Source of the DNA: Syntrophomonadaceae bacterium
GTDB lineage: Bacteria; Bacillota; Syntrophomonadia; Syntrophomonadales; Syntrophomonadaceae
Length of the DNA stretch: 41,284 bases
NCBI GenBank assembly: GCA_014360155.1
Contig: JACIYB010000004.1
Location: 1 to 41,284 of the forward strand
Reading direction: 5' to 3'
Positions 1-41,284 of the stretch are shown here, piece by piece. The position numbers and the translations under genes were made by a program. Every line of letters begins with the position of its first letter. The first letter of the stretch is position 1. The notes beneath the pieces are model-generated. The model was given only the letters and a program-made list of their open reading frames with translations, did not search any database and had not been told where the DNA came from.

Positions 1-396
1 GGCTTTGCTGTCGCCGCGCAGCATCACATCAGGAAATATCGCCTGATATGCTGGATGCTGCGTCAGTTCGCGCGCCTGCCATGAGTTATTGGCCGCAAGT
101 CGCGCCGAGTAGCTTGTATGGATGAATTCTGAATCAGGCGCTTTGCCCAATGCCCACGCCATGAAGTTAATCACGGCCAATTCTGTTTTCGAATAACGCG
201 GCGGGATGTTGATAATCAGGCGCGTTGATTCGCCATTGAACACCCGCATCAGCGCGTCACAGATGATCTTGTGGTGATCCGCTCGAATCCACTGATAGCC
301 GCGACGTTGCTTGAACATCCAGCGGCTAAAGAAGTACAGGTCATCGCTTGCAAGAATCGCCGCCGCTTCGTTCTGCTGCTGGCTGTACTCTTGCAT
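1..396 (-). CDS. terL: Terminase large subunit, N-terminal part (continues across the circular join into 41284..39100)
   Basis: Minus-strand translation from ATG at 396: MQEYSQQQNEAAAILASDDLYFFSRWMFKQRRGYQWIRADHHKII...STRLIINIPPRYSKTELAVINFMAWALGKAPDSEF...; Walker-A-like PPRYSKTE; runs in frame into the 41284..39100 ORF via the 97-bp terminal overlap. Confidence 0.93.
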   Translation of the reverse strand, partial: MQEYSQQQNEAAAILASDDLYFFSRWMFKQRRGYQWIRADHHKIICDALMRVFNGESTRLIINIPPRYSKTELAVINFMAWALGKAPDSEFIHTSYSARLAANNSWQARELTQHPAYQAIFPDVMLRGDSKA

Positions 397-10802: not shown

Positions 10803-11189
10803 ATGAACATTGATGATTTAACTATTGGTCAAGCGCGTGAATTGGCTGCGTTGTTTTCGGCAACGAGTGTGCAGCAGTGCGCTCAATCCATGGGGGGAAT
10901 GATTGACAAGAAAGTAATCATTCGCACCTATTCCGCTGGCGTGTTTTTTGGCGTTCTGGCTGAAAAAGCAGGCAGTGAGGTGATTCTGAAATCAGCTCGT
11001 CGTATGTGGCAATGGAAGGCTGAAAAATCAATCAGCTTGTCTGGCTGCGCGATTTACGGGATTGATGAAAGTGCAAGCCGAATCGCTCCGGCTGTTGATT
11101 CGATTTGGCTTGAAGCAATTGAAATCATCCCATGCACGGAAGTGGCCATTGAAAGCATCGAGGGCGCGAAAGATGCCAAAGCTCAATAA
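10803..11189 (+). CDS. DUF6948-like phage protein
   Basis: ...KKVIIRTYSAGVFFGVLAEKAGSEVILKSARRMWQWKAEKSISLSGCAIYGID...WLEAIEIIPCTEVAIESIEG. Confidence 0.6.
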   Translation: MNIDDLTIGQARELAALFSATSVQQCAQSMGGMIDKKVIIRTYSAGVFFGVLAEKAGSEVILKSARRMWQWKAEKSISLSGCAIYGIDESASRIAPAVDSIWLEAIEIIPCTEVAIESIEGAKDAKAQ

Positions 11190-11448
11190 ACCAGAAGTCT
11201 CCGGCGACGGCTCCGGCTCCGGCTCCGGCTCCGGCGACGGCTACGGCGACGGCTACGGCTACGGCTACGGCTACGGCGACGGCTACGGCTACGGCTACGG
11301 CTCCGGCGACGGCTACGGCTCCGGCGACGGCTCCGGCTCCGGCTACGGCTACGGCGACGGCTACGGCTACGGCTACGGCGACGGCTACGGCGACGGCTCC
11401 GGCGACGGCTCCGGCGACGGCGACGGCGACGGCGACGGCTACGGCTGA
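11173..11448 (+). CDS. Gly-X (X = Asp/Ser/Tyr) dipeptide-repeat protein
   Basis: MPKLNKPEVS(GX)40G; start overlaps end of the DUF6948-like gene by 17 bp. Confidence 0.55.
   Translation: MPKLNKPEVSGDGSGSGSGSGDGYGDGYGYGYGYGDGYGYGYGSGDGYGSGDGSGSGYGYGDGYGYGYGDGYGDGSGDGSGDGDGDGDGYG
11203..11445. repeat. Array of 40 hexanucleotides GGC-[GAC|TAC|TCC]
   Basis: Read directly: 14 GD, 10 GS, 16 GY units, no other codons. Confidence 0.95.
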
Positions 11449-11461
11449 ATCAATGCCGACT

Positions 11462-11761
11462 GACCGCCGCAAGCGGTCGACCGTAACGGGGAGTGATCTG
11501 GAGCCAGTAACGCCGTCCCAGATCATTCCACCGATGCGGTGAACGCGCAGGCTGATGCGCGAATTGAATCTTTGCTTTGCCGCAAAGGGAAGAAATTCTT
11601 TGTTTGAAATGACACTTGGCTCGGGCAGCCGCTGTTTTGCGCGTACACATGTCGACGTGTGGTTTGAAACGGAAAACAAGAGTCCACAACCAAGATGCCG
11701 GAGATCAGCACCGGCCACCGCATCACTTATACGAGAGCGTATTCCATGCACGAATGCGCTC
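11462..11761 (+). other. Non-coding region with serial stem-loops (candidate structured RNA / bet leader)
   Basis: Stems 11462-11478, 11490-11529 (12 bp incl. one G.U), 11544-11561, 11575-11587, 11697-11715, 11735-11761 (10 bp incl. one G.U). Confidence 0.4.
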
Positions 11762-11787
11762 CCCGATGACAAATCCATAGGAGAAAT

Positions 11788-12612
11788 GTGATGACCAAAG
11801 AAATTGCTTTAGCCGGAAACAGAGCGCAGTTGGTGAAAGTGCTCCAGTCCAGCCTCTATGTTGGCTCAAAGGACGAATCCGTTGAAATGGTTCTGGACTA
11901 CTGCGAAGCAGCCGGTTTCGACCCAATGCAGAAGCCAGTCCATATCGTGCCAATCAATGCCAAAAACCCAGTCACAGGCAACTACGAGTGGCGCGATGTG
12001 GTAATGCCAGGCATCGGCCTCTATCGAATCCAGGCGGATCGCTCAAAGTCATTGGCTGGCATTTCTGAACCCGTTTTCGGGGAAATGATTCGCCGCGATT
12101 TCCGCGATAAGAACGGGAATGCCGTATCTGTGACCTTCCCTGAATGGTGCAGCGTGACAGTCAAAAAGCTCGTCGGTAATCACATCGTGGAATTCACCGC
12201 GAAGGAATACTGGGAAGAAAACTACGCCTCCGACTCAGGCAAGAGCGATGCCCCCAATTCAATGTGGCGCAAGCGTGTTCGCGGACAAATCGCCAAGTGC
12301 GCTGAGGCCCAAGCTCTTCGCAAGGCATTCCCTGAAGTTGGTAATGCACCGACTGCCGAAGAAATGGAGGGCAAAACACTTGAATCTCAAAGTCAGCCTT
12401 TGCGCCGAATTGAGGCAGAGCCACAGGAATATTCCCAAGAAGAATTCGACCAGAAGGTCGGCCAGTGGGAAGGAATCATCAGATCTGGCAAGCATTCGGC
12501 AAACAGCCTGATCGCCCAGATCGAGAGCAAGGGCAAATTTTTCACCATGGACCAGAAGATGACCCTTGCGTCTTTCGAGGTTCCAGAAGCACAGGTTGAG
12601 GAGGTTGAGTGA
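11788..12612 (+). CDS. bet: Bet/RecT-family single-strand annealing protein
   Basis: EMVLDYCEAAGFDPMQKPVHIVPI...MRDVVMPGIGLYR-like, PEWCSVTVKKL, EFTAKEYWEENYA, MWRKRVRGQIAKCAEAQALRKAFPE. Confidence 0.92.
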   Translation: MMTKEIALAGNRAQLVKVLQSSLYVGSKDESVEMVLDYCEAAGFDPMQKPVHIVPINAKNPVTGNYEWRDVVMPGIGLYRIQADRSKSLAGISEPVFGEMIRRDFRDKNGNAVSVTFPEWCSVTVKKLVGNHIVEFTAKEYWEENYASDSGKSDAPNSMWRKRVRGQIAKCAEAQALRKAFPEVGNAPTAEEMEGKTLESQSQPLRRIEAEPQEYSQEEFDQKVGQWEGIIRSGKHSANSLIAQIESKGKFFTMDQKMTLASFEVPEAQVEEVE

Positions 12613-12839
12613 TGATCAGTCAGGAAGAGTTAATGACCATTCTTGATTACAACGCGCAAACAGGTGTTTTCACTTGGAAAAAACCTCCAAAAGAACACGC
12701 TAGGTTATCCGGGAAAGAAGCGGGGACAAGGTCAACCAAATACATTTTGATCCGCATTAACAACAATAAATACAAGGCTCATCGCCTGGCGTGGCTTGCG
12801 ATTTATGGTGAATTTCCATCGGACGAAATCGACCACATC
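12609..12839 (+). pseudogene. HNH-AP2 homing endonuclease, 5' fragment (interrupted at DEIDHI)
   Basis: ...NNNKYKAHRLAWLAIYGEFPSDEIDHI then abrupt loss of similarity; continuation found at 13595. Confidence 0.85.
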
Positions 12840-12913
12840 GCAGAAGTCAGCGGCGCCGGCACGGCGTCCGCTGGACTGCCGGGTTATGCCGCCGGTGGAA
12901 ACGGAGAACGGAA

Positions 12914-13390
12914 ATGACGGACTACAAGAGCATGTTTGAACAGGCAGTGCGAACACTGGCCGCGATTGATGAAGCACTCGGGATAGGTAACGACGGATGC
13001 GGCGACCCAGACCAGACGCTGGCCGCGATTGCGGAATTGAAGGCTCTCCAAAAAATGGAGGCCCCACAACTGCGCAAGATACACCCGCTAGATTTTCCGA
13101 TTGAGGTTTTTCTAGCCGACCTAACAACACGACCCGCGAACATCATCCGGGCCGAACTAGCAGGGTTCGCCTTATACGCCGGGACAGGAACGTTCGACAT
13201 TGAGCCGCCTTTTACTGTGCGCCACCTGTGCATGTTCAGCCGCAGCGAAATGCGCCGCTGGCCGAACTTCGGGCGAAAGTGCCTAAATGAAGTGGAGGAA
13301 ATGCTGCGGGCTAGAGGCTTGCAGTTATGGGAGAACCACGACGAAAGATCGCTGCGCCTGCTGCGTGAGCATAAGGAGTATTTCAAATGA
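12914..13390 (+). CDS. Protein with RNA polymerase alpha-CTD-like helix-hairpin-helix region
   Basis: MTDYKSMFEQAVRTLAAIDEALGIG... + PPFTVRHLCMFSRSEMRRWPNFGRKCLNEVEEMLRARGLQLWEN resembling alpha-CTD (LTVRSANCL...[26 protein letters not shown]). Confidence 0.65.
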   Translation: MTDYKSMFEQAVRTLAAIDEALGIGNDGCGDPDQTLAAIAELKALQKMEAPQLRKIHPLDFPIEVFLADLTTRPANIIRAELAGFALYAGTGTFDIEPPFTVRHLCMFSRSEMRRWPNFGRKCLNEVEEMLRARGLQLWENHDERSLRLLREHKEYFK

Positions 13391-16578: not shown

Positions 16579-16907
16579 CCCTAACCAACACAGCAACAAT
16601 CCTGCGCCAAATTAACGCGGTAGGCGGATGCGCTGGGTATTTTAGCGACGAATTGGACGGCCAATTAGAGTCAATCAAAAATGGCCGGTCGAAAATGGCA
16701 GAGCATCGAAAAGAGCAGGCATTAAAAAAATACGCTGATGCCCTGATCGGATTGGGTAGACCGGCAACAGCGCGGGAAATAGCAGAATTGACTGGAACAA
16801 CGCCTGGGGCTGTCGTGCTTCACATTAAGAAGTACCCCGATCAATTCATCGTTACGGTTGAGAAACTGGTCGGTGTCAAAAGATTATGGATCGAATTGAG
16901 GAAATAA
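16575..16907 (+). CDS. Hypothetical winged-HTH-like protein
   Basis: ALIGLGRPATAREIAELTGTTPGAVVLHIKKYPDQF. Confidence 0.55.
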   Translation: MTLTNTATILRQINAVGGCAGYFSDELDGQLESIKNGRSKMAEHRKEQALKKYADALIGLGRPATAREIAELTGTTPGAVVLHIKKYPDQFIVTVEKLVGVKRLWIELRK

Positions 16908-16909
16908 AA

Positions 16910-17416
16910 ATGGCAAGTCGCGGAATTAATAAGGTCATCGTGCTGGGTGATGACTCAGAGGAGCGCTTAAGGCATCTACTCAGAAAAACAATAACCACTA
17001 AATATGGTTGCATGGAATTTCAGGGGTGCGTACAAGCCAATGGATATTCAAGGGCTACTGTATTTAGGAAAACTGATTATGCCCATAGACATGTTTATAG
17101 ACTTAGCCACGGTAAATTACCCGACGGACTGGATGTATGCCACAAGTGTGACAACAGGCGGTGCATTAATCCAGATCATCTATTTTTAGGAACTCGTAAG
17201 CAGAATATGCAGGATGCAGTTAGCAAGGGGAGGCAAGCCAAGGGATTTTCATTTCCACACACAAAGCTTTCTGATGCCGACGTTTCTGAAATCGTAACTC
17301 GCGCTAGAAACGGTGAAAAATACAAAAAAATCGCCATGCATTTTGGAATTTGCAAACAGCATGCTGGCAGCATCGCAATTAAAAATGGAGTAAGAAGAAA
17401 TGGCGTCTCTAAATAA
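16910..17416 (+). CDS. Free-standing HNH homing endonuclease (HNH_3-like)
   Basis: [53 protein letters not shown]-terminal HTH repeat; 3' end overlaps ssb start. Confidence 0.88.
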
Positions 17417-37695: not shown

Positions 37696-39118
37696 TCATG
37701 CCACCAAGCTCTTTTGGCGTGATGAATTGCTCGGGCTTGTCAGCTTCCGATTCTGCCTTCGGCGGCATATCATCGGCATCCTTAATGTCTTCATCGGTGA
37801 TGTTCGTAAACACACCGGTCAATGCGGATGACTGACGCAATTCTTTGAGCGCCGTTGCTTGACTGATGATTGACGATTCGAACGCCTTGATGACGGTATC
37901 GGCATCGACACCGGCAATATCTGACTTCTCTTTCTCGGTGACCAGCCATAGCGGGTTGAACGAGAACCGAAAGCCCTTGGGCAACTTGTCGCCGAGCACA
38001 GAGCGCGCGGTGATATCAAGAATCTTCGTCAGTGGTGCGCGCAGCTGGATGTTCTGCTGCTTTGCCAATCCATCGTAGTAGGTGCGCAAATCAGACTCAC
38101 CCGACGAATTCAGGCCGCCAGGTGACTGGCCGAACAACCGGATCAACGGGATTTGCAAAGCGCCGCTGATCTGCTGGCCGAATTGCAGCATCATGTCGCT
38201 CAATCCGCTGAACGAGTATTGCTGCGTGTCGAACTCATCCGTCGAGTCAAGCAGCGTGATTCCCTCGTTCGATTGGGTCTTGCGCATATTATCGATCTGC
38301 GCCTGCACGCCAGCCATAGCAGGCCCGCCGGCTGCGATAATGTCACGCAATCCTTCGATCTTCATCACGCGCAGATGCGCCTTGTACACCAACTGAGCCG
38401 CGCCCGTGCTGGTGCTGTCATAGCTCACCAACCGGTCATAAATGCGCTCTACAACCGATTCGCCCCACATGTTCTCGGTCTGCGCCTGGTTGAATGGCAG
38501 ATCAATACCTGTCATGCGGATGACGCGAGAGTAGTGAATCTTCGGGTACTTGCTTACGGATACCGGCGCTTGAACGACTGAGTAGAACTTCGGCAATCCG
38601 TAGTAATGCCCAAGCTCGTCCACCACGTCAGACACGGACGGCTGAACCATCCAGCGATCCAGCGGCATGATGCCCTTGAACTGGCCTTCGCCGATGGTGT
38701 CAATGTCCAGCGGCGTAGACGGGTCTTGCCCGTCGATCATGATGTAACCGAGCGCGCCGCCATAAAGCCGCGACCATTTGAGAACCTTGGTCAGCGATTG
38801 CCAAATCTGCAAATCTTCAATCGCGGCATGGAGCGCATCGTTTTCATCTGGCGTGAGCGTCGAGTTGAAATCAATGCCAGCGCGCGTCATGTCCTCTGCC
38901 GGGGCGTCGACAGCCATGCCGACCAACCATGAGCCGCGATACATCCATTCCAACTGGATGCGCATTCGAGTGATTGGGTTAAACCCATACGTCGAATTGC
39001 TGCTCTGATTGCTCGCGCCAATGCCCAATCCGGCTTGGAAATTCTGGAAGCTATCGAATGTAGCGTTTCCCTTTGCCTTGATGGTTGATCGGCGCTTCGT
39101 CATGCTAATTTTGCCCAT
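37682..39118 (-). CDS. Portal protein (DUF1073-like)
   Basis: RIQLEWMYRGSWLVGMAVDAPAEDMTRAGIDFNS...GRLFGQSPGGLNSSGESDLRTYYDGLAKQQN-type region. Confidence 0.85.
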   Translation of the reverse strand: MGKISMTKRRSTIKAKGNATFDSFQNFQAGLGIGASNQSSNSTYGFNPITRMRIQLEWMYRGSWLVGMAVDAPAEDMTRAGIDFNSTLTPDENDALHAAIEDLQIWQSLTKVLKWSRLYGGALGYIMIDGQDPSTPLDIDTIGEGQFKGIMPLDRWMVQPSVSDVVDELGHYYGLPKFYSVVQAPVSVSKYPKIHYSRVIRMTGIDLPFNQAQTENMWGESVVERIYDRLVSYDSTSTGAAQLVYKAHLRVMKIEGLRDIIAAGGPAMAGVQAQIDNMRKTQSNEGITLLDSTDEFDTQQYSFSGLSDMMLQFGQQISGALQIPLIRLFGQSPGGLNSSGESDLRTYYDGLAKQQNIQLRAPLTKILDITARSVLGDKLPKGFRFSFNPLWLVTEKEKSDIAGVDADTVIKAFESSIISQATALKELRQSSALTGVFTNITDEDIKDADDMPPKAESEADKPEQFITPKELGGMNGEV

Positions 39119-41284
39119 GTTCCTAGATTTGCGCCGCCGATAAGTTCACTGAACGCACGGCTTAATGCGTCGATCTGGTCATCGAATGAACCGTTTGGGA
39201 ACATCCGCATTTCGTTGATAAGTTGGTCGTTCCAGTCGCCGCGCAGAATCATTACGTTGCCTGCGTTGATCTGGGCGGCCAGTGGTTCGGCGCGTGTCAC
39301 CTTGTCGCCGGACTCCGGCGATGACCGCACACGAAACCCAGACAACTGCCGAGTCAGATACAAAACCTGAGTCTTGCCCGCCTGACCTGGATCTTGAGGA
39401 ATGCTCAACGGACATAAAGCGCCATCACGTCGAGCGGTATTCAGAATCGCCGCATCACGTTCATCAGGGCCGCATCGGACCCGCACCATGTCAGCGATGA
39501 CGAAGCGGCCATCTGGCAACTTCCCGATCTTGCCGCCCGCTGTCCAGTCGCCGTCAGTGGTTGACGCCAAATCCCAGCCACGCATCCAGGTGATTTGTCC
39601 GGCTGGTAGTGCGTCGATCGTCACCAGGTTGTCTGGCTTGATTACGCCGCCTTCTGCTGGGGCTGGTCGCTGCTGATATTGCCCCGCGAATGTGTACGGG
39701 CTTGCATCCTGCATCCGGCGTAAATCGTCGGCTGTGTGCTTATCAGGCCACAGCGCAGAGCCATCGTCGCGCAATGCCGACAAGCAGATATGATCCCACT
39801 GCTCGCCGTTTCCACCCTTGAGCAGCCATCCGCTCAGGTCATCCTCGTGCAATCGCTGCATGATCAGGATGATCGGGGTTTCCGGTGAGTTCTTCCGGCT
39901 TTCGAGCGTGTTCTGGAACCACTCGATGACGTTTGCTCGCATCACATCGGATCGGGCTTCGTCAGCCTTGTGTGGGTCATCGATCAGGATGCAATTTTTG
40001 ACCACCAAACCGGATTCGATGGTAAAATTATGATAATCATCAACGGTCAAGCAAAAGGTCACATCATCATGCCGAACGCGCTCAACGAGAACTGGCTTCC
40101 GGTACCCGGATATGAAGGGTTCTATTCCGTCAGCGACCACGGAAGGGTCAGAAGCGAAAGCCGGATGATCACCAATGCCGGAAGTGGCTATTCTTATACG
40201 CAGCCCGGAAAGCTGCTCAAGCCGAGCCGGGAAGGTAGCGGGCACGTCCGCGTCAGCCTGTCCAGAAAATCCAAGATCAGCTATACGTCTGTTCACTCGC
40301 TTGTGATGCTGGCCTTCGTTGGCGAGCGCCCGGAAGGTGCGGACATTTGCCACACCGACGGAAACCCCGCGAACAACAGACTCACCAACCTGCGATACGA
40401 CTCGCGCAGATCTAACATCATCGACAGCCAGCGGCATGGCACTTTCAGCGAGGCCGAAATCCACCCCGCCGCCATGCTCACCAACGACCAGGCATTGGCC
40501 ATCTACAACACTGTCGGCATAGCTGCCAACGATCTGGCTGCGCAATATGGCGTCTGTGCCGCCGTCATTAATCAAATCTGGCGCGGCGACACATGGAAGT
40601 CCGTCACAGGCGGAAAGCCCGTGATCGGAAGTCGAGGCGAGAAGACCTACCTCAGAACCATCTTGACCAAAAGCCATGCTGACTTCGCCATCGCCAACAG
40701 GGCCAACCGAACAGGACGGAAGGACGGGCGCGGGATCAAGCCCACCGCTTCCGCGCTTGGGGTTGATGCCGACGTGATTAAGACCCTGTATGCCGCCATT
40801 GACGCGGGGAAGGCAATCATCTACGCCGAGTGAATCAGCGCGCACCCATCCTCGGTTTGTCCAGAACCTGTGGTCTTGGGTGCACTCGACAATCGCGCCA
40901 TCGTCAAACGTCACGCGCCAAATATCGTTTGGCGGATTCTCGTGCCACGCAACCACCGGACGCAGAGCCATCCCGCCAGCGTAATCAAATGCCCAGACAT
41001 TGATTGTCATGCGCTCGCGCACGATGCGATCAATCGGTATCAGACCACTTTCTGTCCAAACTCGCGTTCCAACCGGAAAGCACCCGCCAAAGCCATCACG
41101 ATGCTTGCCAGCGCCATAGCCGGTAATCGTGCCACCAGAGCCAGCGGCATAAACCACGCCACCGGCTGATGTTTTCCATTCATCCTTGGCTTTGCTGTCG
41201 CCGCGCAGCATCACATCAGGAAATATCGCCTGATATGCTGGATGCTGCGACAGTTCGCGCGCCTGCCATGAGTTATTGGCCGCA
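39100..41284 (-). CDS. terL: Terminase large subunit, C-terminal part containing an intein (5' part at 396..1 through the circular join)
   Basis: ...TGYGAGKHRDGFGG|intein|CILIDDPHKADEARSDVMRANVIEWFQNTLESRKNSPETPIILIMQRLHEDDLSGWLL...; nuclease domain ...GWDLASTTDGDWTAGGKIG... Confidence 0.93.
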   Translation of the reverse strand, partial: AANNSWQARELSQHPAYQAIFPDVMLRGDSKAKDEWKTSAGGVVYAAGSGGTITGYGAGKHRDGFGGCFPVGTRVWTESGLIPIDRIVRERMTINVWAFDYAGGMALRPVVAWHENPPNDIWRVTFDDGAIVECTQDHRFWTNRGWVRADSLGVDDCLPRVNGGIQGLNHVGINPKRGSGGLDPAPVLPSCSVGPVGDGEVSMAFGQDGSEVGLLASTSDHGLSACDGLPCVAAPDLINDGGTDAILRSQIVGSYADSVVDGQCLVVGEHGGGVDFGLAESAMPLAVDDVRSARVVSQVGESVVRGVSVGVANVRTFRALANEGQHHKRVNRRIADLGFSGQADADVPATFPARLEQLSGLRIRIATSGIGDHPAFASDPSVVADGIEPFISGYRKPVLVERVRHDDVTFCLTVDDYHNFTIESGLVVKNCILIDDPHKADEARSDVMRANVIEWFQNTLESRKNSPETPIILIMQRLHEDDLSGWLLKGGNGEQWDHICLSALRDDGSALWPDKHTADDLRRMQDASPYTFAGQYQQRPAPAEGGVIKPDNLVTIDALPAGQITWMRGWDLASTTDGDWTAGGKIGKLPDGRFVIADMVRVRCGPDERDAAILNTARRDGALCPLSIPQDPGQAGKTQVLYLTRQLSGFRVRSSPESGDKVTRAEPLAAQINAGNVMILRGDWNDQLINEMRMFPNGSFDDQIDALSRAFSELIGGANLGTWAKLA
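39994..41082 (-). other. Intein (363 aa) inserted directly before the Walker B motif of TerL
   Basis: N-terminal CFPVGTRVWTESGLIPIDRI; block B-like DGAIVECTQDHRFWTNRGWVRADSL; C-terminal VRHDDVTFCLTVDDYHNFTIESGLVVKN followed by +1 Cys. Confidence 0.9.
40069..40833 (+). CDS. NUMOD4/HNH homing endonuclease encoded antisense inside the terL intein
   Basis: MPNALNENWLPVPGYEGFYSVSDHGRVRSESRMI (NUMOD4) ... SVHSLVMLAFVGERPEGADICHTDGNPANNRLTNLRYDSRRSNIIDSQRHG (HNH) ... HTH-like C-terminus; AAAAGG 10 nt before ATG. Confidence 0.92.
   Translation: MPNALNENWLPVPGYEGFYSVSDHGRVRSESRMITNAGSGYSYTQPGKLLKPSREGSGHVRVSLSRKSKISYTSVHSLVMLAFVGERPEGADICHTDGNPANNRLTNLRYDSRRSNIIDSQRHGTFSEAEIHPAAMLTNDQALAIYNTVGIAANDLAAQYGVCAAVINQIWRGDTWKSVTGGKPVIGSRGEKTYLRTILTKSHADFAIANRANRTGRKDGRGIKPTASALGVDADVIKTLYAAIDAGKAIIYAE
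41188..41284. repeat. 97-bp terminal redundancy identical to 1-97 except one base (41250 A vs 63 T)
   Basis: Direct comparison of both ends. Confidence 0.97.

Follow-up and report, generated by a model that had tools for sequence, protein, structure and literature searches.

A probable homing endonuclease gene lies antisense, codon on codon, within an intein of a phage terL gene

The TerL protein of cyanophage Mic1 contains two inteins, one of which carries an endonuclease domain (PMC7156551). The ShiLan element is an HNH gene hidden out of frame, on the same strand, in a phage methylase gene, and it has no splicing domain (PMC11855218). Antisense homing endonuclease genes have been described in group I introns, and for one of their products, I-DsqI, both expression and activity have been demonstrated (PMC9548176).

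The locus analyzed here is an insert in a phage terL gene. Like canonical inteins, as represented by Mic1 TerL (PMC7156551), it has a Hint domain, Cys1, block B, a terminal Asn and a +1 Cys, and like the Mic1 intein it sits in a conserved catalytic site of TerL and appears to bring its own homing endonuclease. In contrast to canonical inteins, the endonuclease is a separate gene on the opposite strand, and a predicted disordered linker replaces the in-frame domain. As in ShiLan (PMC11855218), a phage HNH gene overlaps an insert that is open in the frame of the host gene. However, ShiLan combines a same-strand HNH gene with the lack of a splicing domain in a methylase that is not essential, whereas here the HNH gene is antisense, splicing blocks make the insert recognizable as an intein, and the host gene is terL. 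The arrangement shares with I-DsqI (PMC9548176) a homing endonuclease antisense to its splicing element, but the rDNA intron that hosts I-DsqI is untranslated and therefore imposes no codon constraint, whereas the intein described here lies in a protein gene and would be translated. Protein-level evidence sets the insert apart from an RNA intron: in 23/23 cases it is open in the terL frame and contains intein blocks. Our literature search found no antisense endonuclease within an intein; a preprint on actinobacteriophage inteins with 'non-canonical architecture' (bioRxiv 10.1101/2025.01.02.630785) might describe a similar arrangement. We consider it very probable that a mobile intein occupies the Walker-B site of terL here, its homing endonuclease being encoded by a separate, codon-on-codon antisense HNH gene.

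The window, that is, the whole stretch of 41,284 nucleotides that was analyzed, is one whole contig. Its two ends, 1–97 and 41188–41284, both lie in terL and share 97 bp that differ at a single position. The contig probably represents a circular phage genome that was opened within terL, the mismatch being a variant or an error. The C-terminal 727 codons of the terL precursor occupy 39100–41284 of the minus strand and continue across the contig ends into window positions 1–396; the ORF matches the terminase families PF17289, phrog_38 and TIGR01630. Elsewhere in the window, low-complexity repeats at 11062–11778 (GSGDGYG-like on the plus strand, VAVAVA on the minus strand) keep both strands open for several hundred bases. 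Two more plus-strand ORFs, 12609–12917 and 16886–17416, contain HNH-like sequence by eye, and the first of them looks truncated or frameshifted past PSDEIDHI.

The intein comprises 363 residues, Cys1 to Asn363 (39994–41082, minus strand). It is inserted between GFGG on one side and, on the other, a +1 Cys (CILIDDPHKADEA) that follows Asn363 directly and precedes ILIDDPHKADEA, in the Walker-B region of terL. The N-terminal splicing block, with Cys1 and the TxxH block, lies at 40834–41082 (minus), and the part of the C-terminal splicing domain that is outside the HNH gene, with the HNF block and the terminal Asn, at 39994–40068 (minus); alignment places both, and the corresponding profiles, TIGR01445 and TIGR01443, match residues 68–142 and 409–431 of the terL ORF, both above cut-off. 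Cys1, Thr68 and His71 are invariant in an alignment of 15 members. AlphaFold predicts both Hint halves (residues 1–97 and 320–363) confidently, and the top PDB matches of the Hint part are the RecA and DnaE inteins. With its N-block, C-block and predicted fold, and as an in-frame insert that is absent from homologues, the element is an intein with a Hint fold. In most cases, the intein has Lys or Ser in place of His as its penultimate residue; a penultimate His is common in inteins and dispensable in some. A separate observation concerns intein residue 338 (window 40069–40071), an invariant His. Since its CAT codon is the antisense of the HNH start ATG, it may be the HNH gene that keeps this residue invariant.

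The HNH gene runs from ATG to TGA at 40069–40833 of the plus strand (40833 being the last base of the stop codon) and encodes 254 amino acids. The protein matches PHROG HNH families and contains NUMOD4 and HNH_3 domains, both above gathering scores; it matches I-HmuI in sequence (E 5e-23) and in fold, and AlphaFold predicts a folded protein with a mean pLDDT of 79. Its residues His95, Asn107 and Asn116, invariant in 18 members, align with His75, Asn87 and Asn96 of I-HmuI, which we take to be the HNH motif residues of that enzyme. The combination of NUMOD4 and HNH and the motif residues are thus shared with I-HmuI (PDB 1u3e), but I-HmuI is encoded in an intron on the sense strand, its Asp74 aligns with Cys or Arg in the present proteins, at a position that is not conserved, and the window protein carries an additional region at its C terminus. 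Positions around Asn103 vary in some members. By its domains and motif residues, the product is a predicted NUMOD4/HNH_3 homing endonuclease of the I-HmuI-like type.

The start at 40069 is the one best supported by the alignment, with a conserved ATG and, 9 nt upstream, a Shine-Dalgarno-like AAAAGGT (40053–40059, plus) that is largely conserved in homologues. Because of this motif, and because the frame is interrupted by stops a short way upstream of that ATG in the homologues L089 and L095, the alternative upstream starts at 40030 and 39970 appear less likely. An ATG in the conserved place is not clear in L226, L227 and L253. AAAAGGT is antisense to Thr-Phe-Cys codons of the intein, and L092 has GAGGAGG instead. 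A TATGAT at 40029–40034 (plus) is a tentative candidate for the -10 element of the HNH gene; a similar motif recurs in many homologues ~35 nt upstream of the HNH ATG, and the His, Asn and Phe codons around it end in T in 38/56 instances versus 25.4 expected, a count that is uncorrected for relatedness. Scanning for consensus sequences near the HNH gene revealed neither a sigma-70 promoter nor a terminator. The start signal, together with the constraint on the protein, suggests that HNH is expressed from the strand opposite terL.

Over 40069–40833, the HNH frame on the plus strand and the terL/intein frame on the minus strand are both open and aligned codon exactly on codon, as an earlier note on this DNA, made from the sequence alone, had reported. 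Between homologues, the fastest-changing sites of the overlap are those at position 3 of the HNH codons (0.50–0.64), and amino acid identity is 0.62–0.73 for HNH versus 0.32–0.46 for the intein frame in the same columns. Outside the overlap, in the intein blocks that flank it and in the C-extein, position 3 of the terL codons changes fastest, and the strand that codes changes at both ends of HNH. That the folded protein of the overlap is encoded by the HNH strand is shown by substitution patterns, AlphaFold and PDB matches. Intein residues 98–319, most of which belong to the overlap, have a predicted pLDDT of ~26. Given this value and the codon-position divergence, the intein-frame middle (40069–40833, minus) is most likely a disordered linker, with the absence of stops as the sole visible constraint; the same two lines of evidence led us to reject a folded product of the intein frame in the overlap, and they bear out the earlier description of the minus-strand product as an antisense shadow.

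The register itself matters for this arrangement. When synonymous codons may be chosen freely, 23/23 HNH proteins can be encoded without any antisense stop in exact register, but the stops that no choice avoids sum to 42 and 36 over the 23 proteins in the other two antisense phases. Exact register is therefore the one antisense phase that can accommodate any HNH protein without amino acid change. Such stop-free accommodation may be the reason for the exact-register arrangement; common descent would keep the register too.

Relatives were gathered by scans of viral contigs and one scan of genomes. Cases were identified with profiles of the N-block, the C-block and HNH, requiring HNH between the blocks in any strand and frame, so as to avoid selecting on openness, and near-identical copies were removed before counting. 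The resulting set comprises at least 23 distinct terL inteins with an antisense HNH gene, at GC contents of 0.40–0.62. In 23/23, HNH is antisense and in exact register, the terL frame is open, and the intein interrupts terL at the Walker-B motif; the same search found no same-strand HNH inside this terL intein family. Functional phages with minus-strand stops in the intein, which the earlier note had named as counter-evidence, did not turn up among the relatives: where HNH lies between intein blocks, none has such a stop. Insertion points differ slightly among the cases (GG|CIIIDDP, I|CDDP and RG|CMILDDP). One case is a complete phage genome, that of E. coli phage BUCT618; all others are metagenomic or MAG contigs, among them L167 from a Deltaproteobacteria MAG. 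In the BUCT618 record (OM735461, L285:1001–1672), only terL is annotated, on the minus strand, and the antisense HNH gene has no annotation. The most divergent case, L253:1283–4231, has its intein directly after GKRG and ending in SHN before CMILDDP; its HNH frame extends over at least 317 codons at 40% GC.

Several candidates were rejected. Two of them pointed to host genes other than terL, but in both, Xanthomonas phage SAC (H68) and an Enterococcus phage polymerase match (H88), the HNH genes are same-strand neighbours and not antisense. Eight further matches (L093, L094, L097, L109, L132, L141, L150 and L158) have an antisense-open HNH gene and no recognizable intein blocks, and we discounted them as open by chance, most of them lying at GC-rich loci. 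A query built from 14 N-block sequences was too variable throughout to serve for a scan, an N-block-only query for the close group found no further contigs, and no second copy of the intein was found in relatives of the host genome. A phylum-wide search returned mostly N-block matches inside long open frames, plus a small number of weak hits to the shadow that were interrupted by stops.

Comparison of the window with two of its relatives points to mobility. The N-block of the intein is 82%, the C-block 92% and HNH 66% identical to those of L167, but the C-extein is only 40% identical; conversely, L102 has a C-extein that is 76% identical, versus 38% for the N-block and 44% for HNH. From these contrasts, intein and HNH appear to move as a unit between divergent terL genes, related terL genes carrying different versions, and distances between HNH proteins correlate with those between intein blocks across cases (Mantel r 0.61–0.65). 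In L005 (around 915–1970), the closest intein-less terL, the C-extein is 92% identical and the same junction is uninterrupted; this junction may be a site that lost an intein. Among 69 insert-less motif matches in terL relatives, the +1 residue is Ala in 62, Cys in 5 (including L005) and Gly in 2. L007:3048–3473 encodes a mini-intein of 142 amino acids, the antisense of which reads MPNEFNARWLSVPGYEGAY joined to AATDTGKPIIYAE and a stop. By its sequence, it arose when an internal part of the antisense HNH gene was deleted in frame; in the relative L089, the segment deleted in L007 is flanked by a 3-nt TAC repeat.

We weighed two other accounts of the HNH gene, both improbable and to the same degree. 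According to the first, it is a decaying relic that no longer works, and the intein need only stay open. The loss of the HNH core in L007, the Cys or Arg aligned to Asp74 and the variation around Asn103 would agree with decay, but the level of HNH identity and the fast third codon position indicate purifying selection on the protein, the three motif residues are invariant, and the start signal is largely conserved. According to the second, the gene product assists packaging instead of homing, and its overlap with terL serves co-regulation. HNH proteins are known to act as helpers of phage terminases (PMC11855218), and the linkage to terL holds in every case; nevertheless, the empty sites, the movement of intein and HNH between divergent terL genes and the mini-intein devoid of HNH fit homing better, and NUMOD4/HNH_3 is an I-HmuI-type architecture.

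If the intein frame must stay open, the constraint should be visible in the codons of HNH, because in exact register stops in terL arise only from HNH TTA, CTA and TCA codons. For the 16 Leu and 22 Ser codons of the window gene, the codon usage of 28 curated window genes leads to an expectation of 6.07 antisense stops, and 0 are seen. A mostly open antisense frame in simulated back-translations had been set beforehand as the outcome that would speak against selection; with phage codon usage, the frame was open in only ~0.1% of trials. When the 23 genes are pooled, a procedure that overstates independence because the cases share ancestry, CTA and TCA account for 0/456 codons versus 465/2047 A-ending codons in six other four-fold boxes, and TTA for 0/61 of TTA plus TTG versus 446/760 A-ending codons for Gln, Lys and Glu. 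AT-rich cases are strong even singly (P 1e-6 for L090 and 5e-7 for L095).

As a control, we used 116 distinct free-standing HNH genes. Of these, 1/25 at GC below 0.47, 1/32 at 0.47–0.57 and 20/59 at 0.57–0.75 are without antisense stops, versus 9/9, 7/7 and 7/7 of the antisense cases in the same bins; free-standing genes of similar GC use TTA, CTA and TCA freely. The content of Leu plus Ser is equal in cases (0.130) and controls (0.127), and the avoidance is therefore synonymous. GC content explains part of the openness, as the earlier note had anticipated from GC-rich codon usage. That the frame is open through such usage only, with no selection, has almost no chance of being correct and was rejected: the 59% GC of the window gene and the stop-free fraction of GC-rich controls agree with it, but the window alone gives P(open) ~0.001, below GC 0.57 stop-free genes number 16/16 among the cases and 2/57 among the controls, and other A-ending codons are used normally in the same genes. 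The within-gene control, the matched free-standing genes and the AT-rich relatives support the selection against TTA, CTA and TCA that the note had proposed. It had also called this constraint rare: the constraint stands, but it is not a one-off, recurring in at least 23 terL inteins.

For the mobile intein with an antisense homing endonuclease, we propose the following scheme. The terL mRNA would be translated straight through the HNH antisense, so that a long disordered linker would join the two halves of the splicing domain; the linker frame is open, and its product is predicted to be disordered. The intein would then splice out and free TerL. The HNH protein, made from the opposite strand, would cut intein-less terL, and, as the distribution suggests, intein and HNH would be copied jointly into the allele that lacks them. 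A TTA, CTA or TCA codon in HNH would truncate TerL, since the shadow belongs to the TerL precursor, and purging of such codons would account for their observed absence. In exact register, this purge is always possible by synonymous choice.

These results indicate that the endonuclease of an intein can be a separate antisense gene. We think it likely that the cases represent a widespread class of mobile inteins with an antisense endonuclease gene, placed in the only antisense phase in which synonymous changes suffice to eliminate every stop. An essential host gene would then police the silent codons of the endonuclease, which would be expressed independently of the intein polypeptide and of terL. 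Annotation hides such antisense HNH genes, as in BUCT618. At this locus, two genes overlap naturally on opposite strands over a long distance, under a clear, testable rule (no TTA, CTA or TCA) and with AT-rich replicates, and selection exerted on silent sites by another gene is therefore directly measurable. The findings also suggest that mini-inteins, and inteins with unrecognizable middles, may hide antisense endonucleases.
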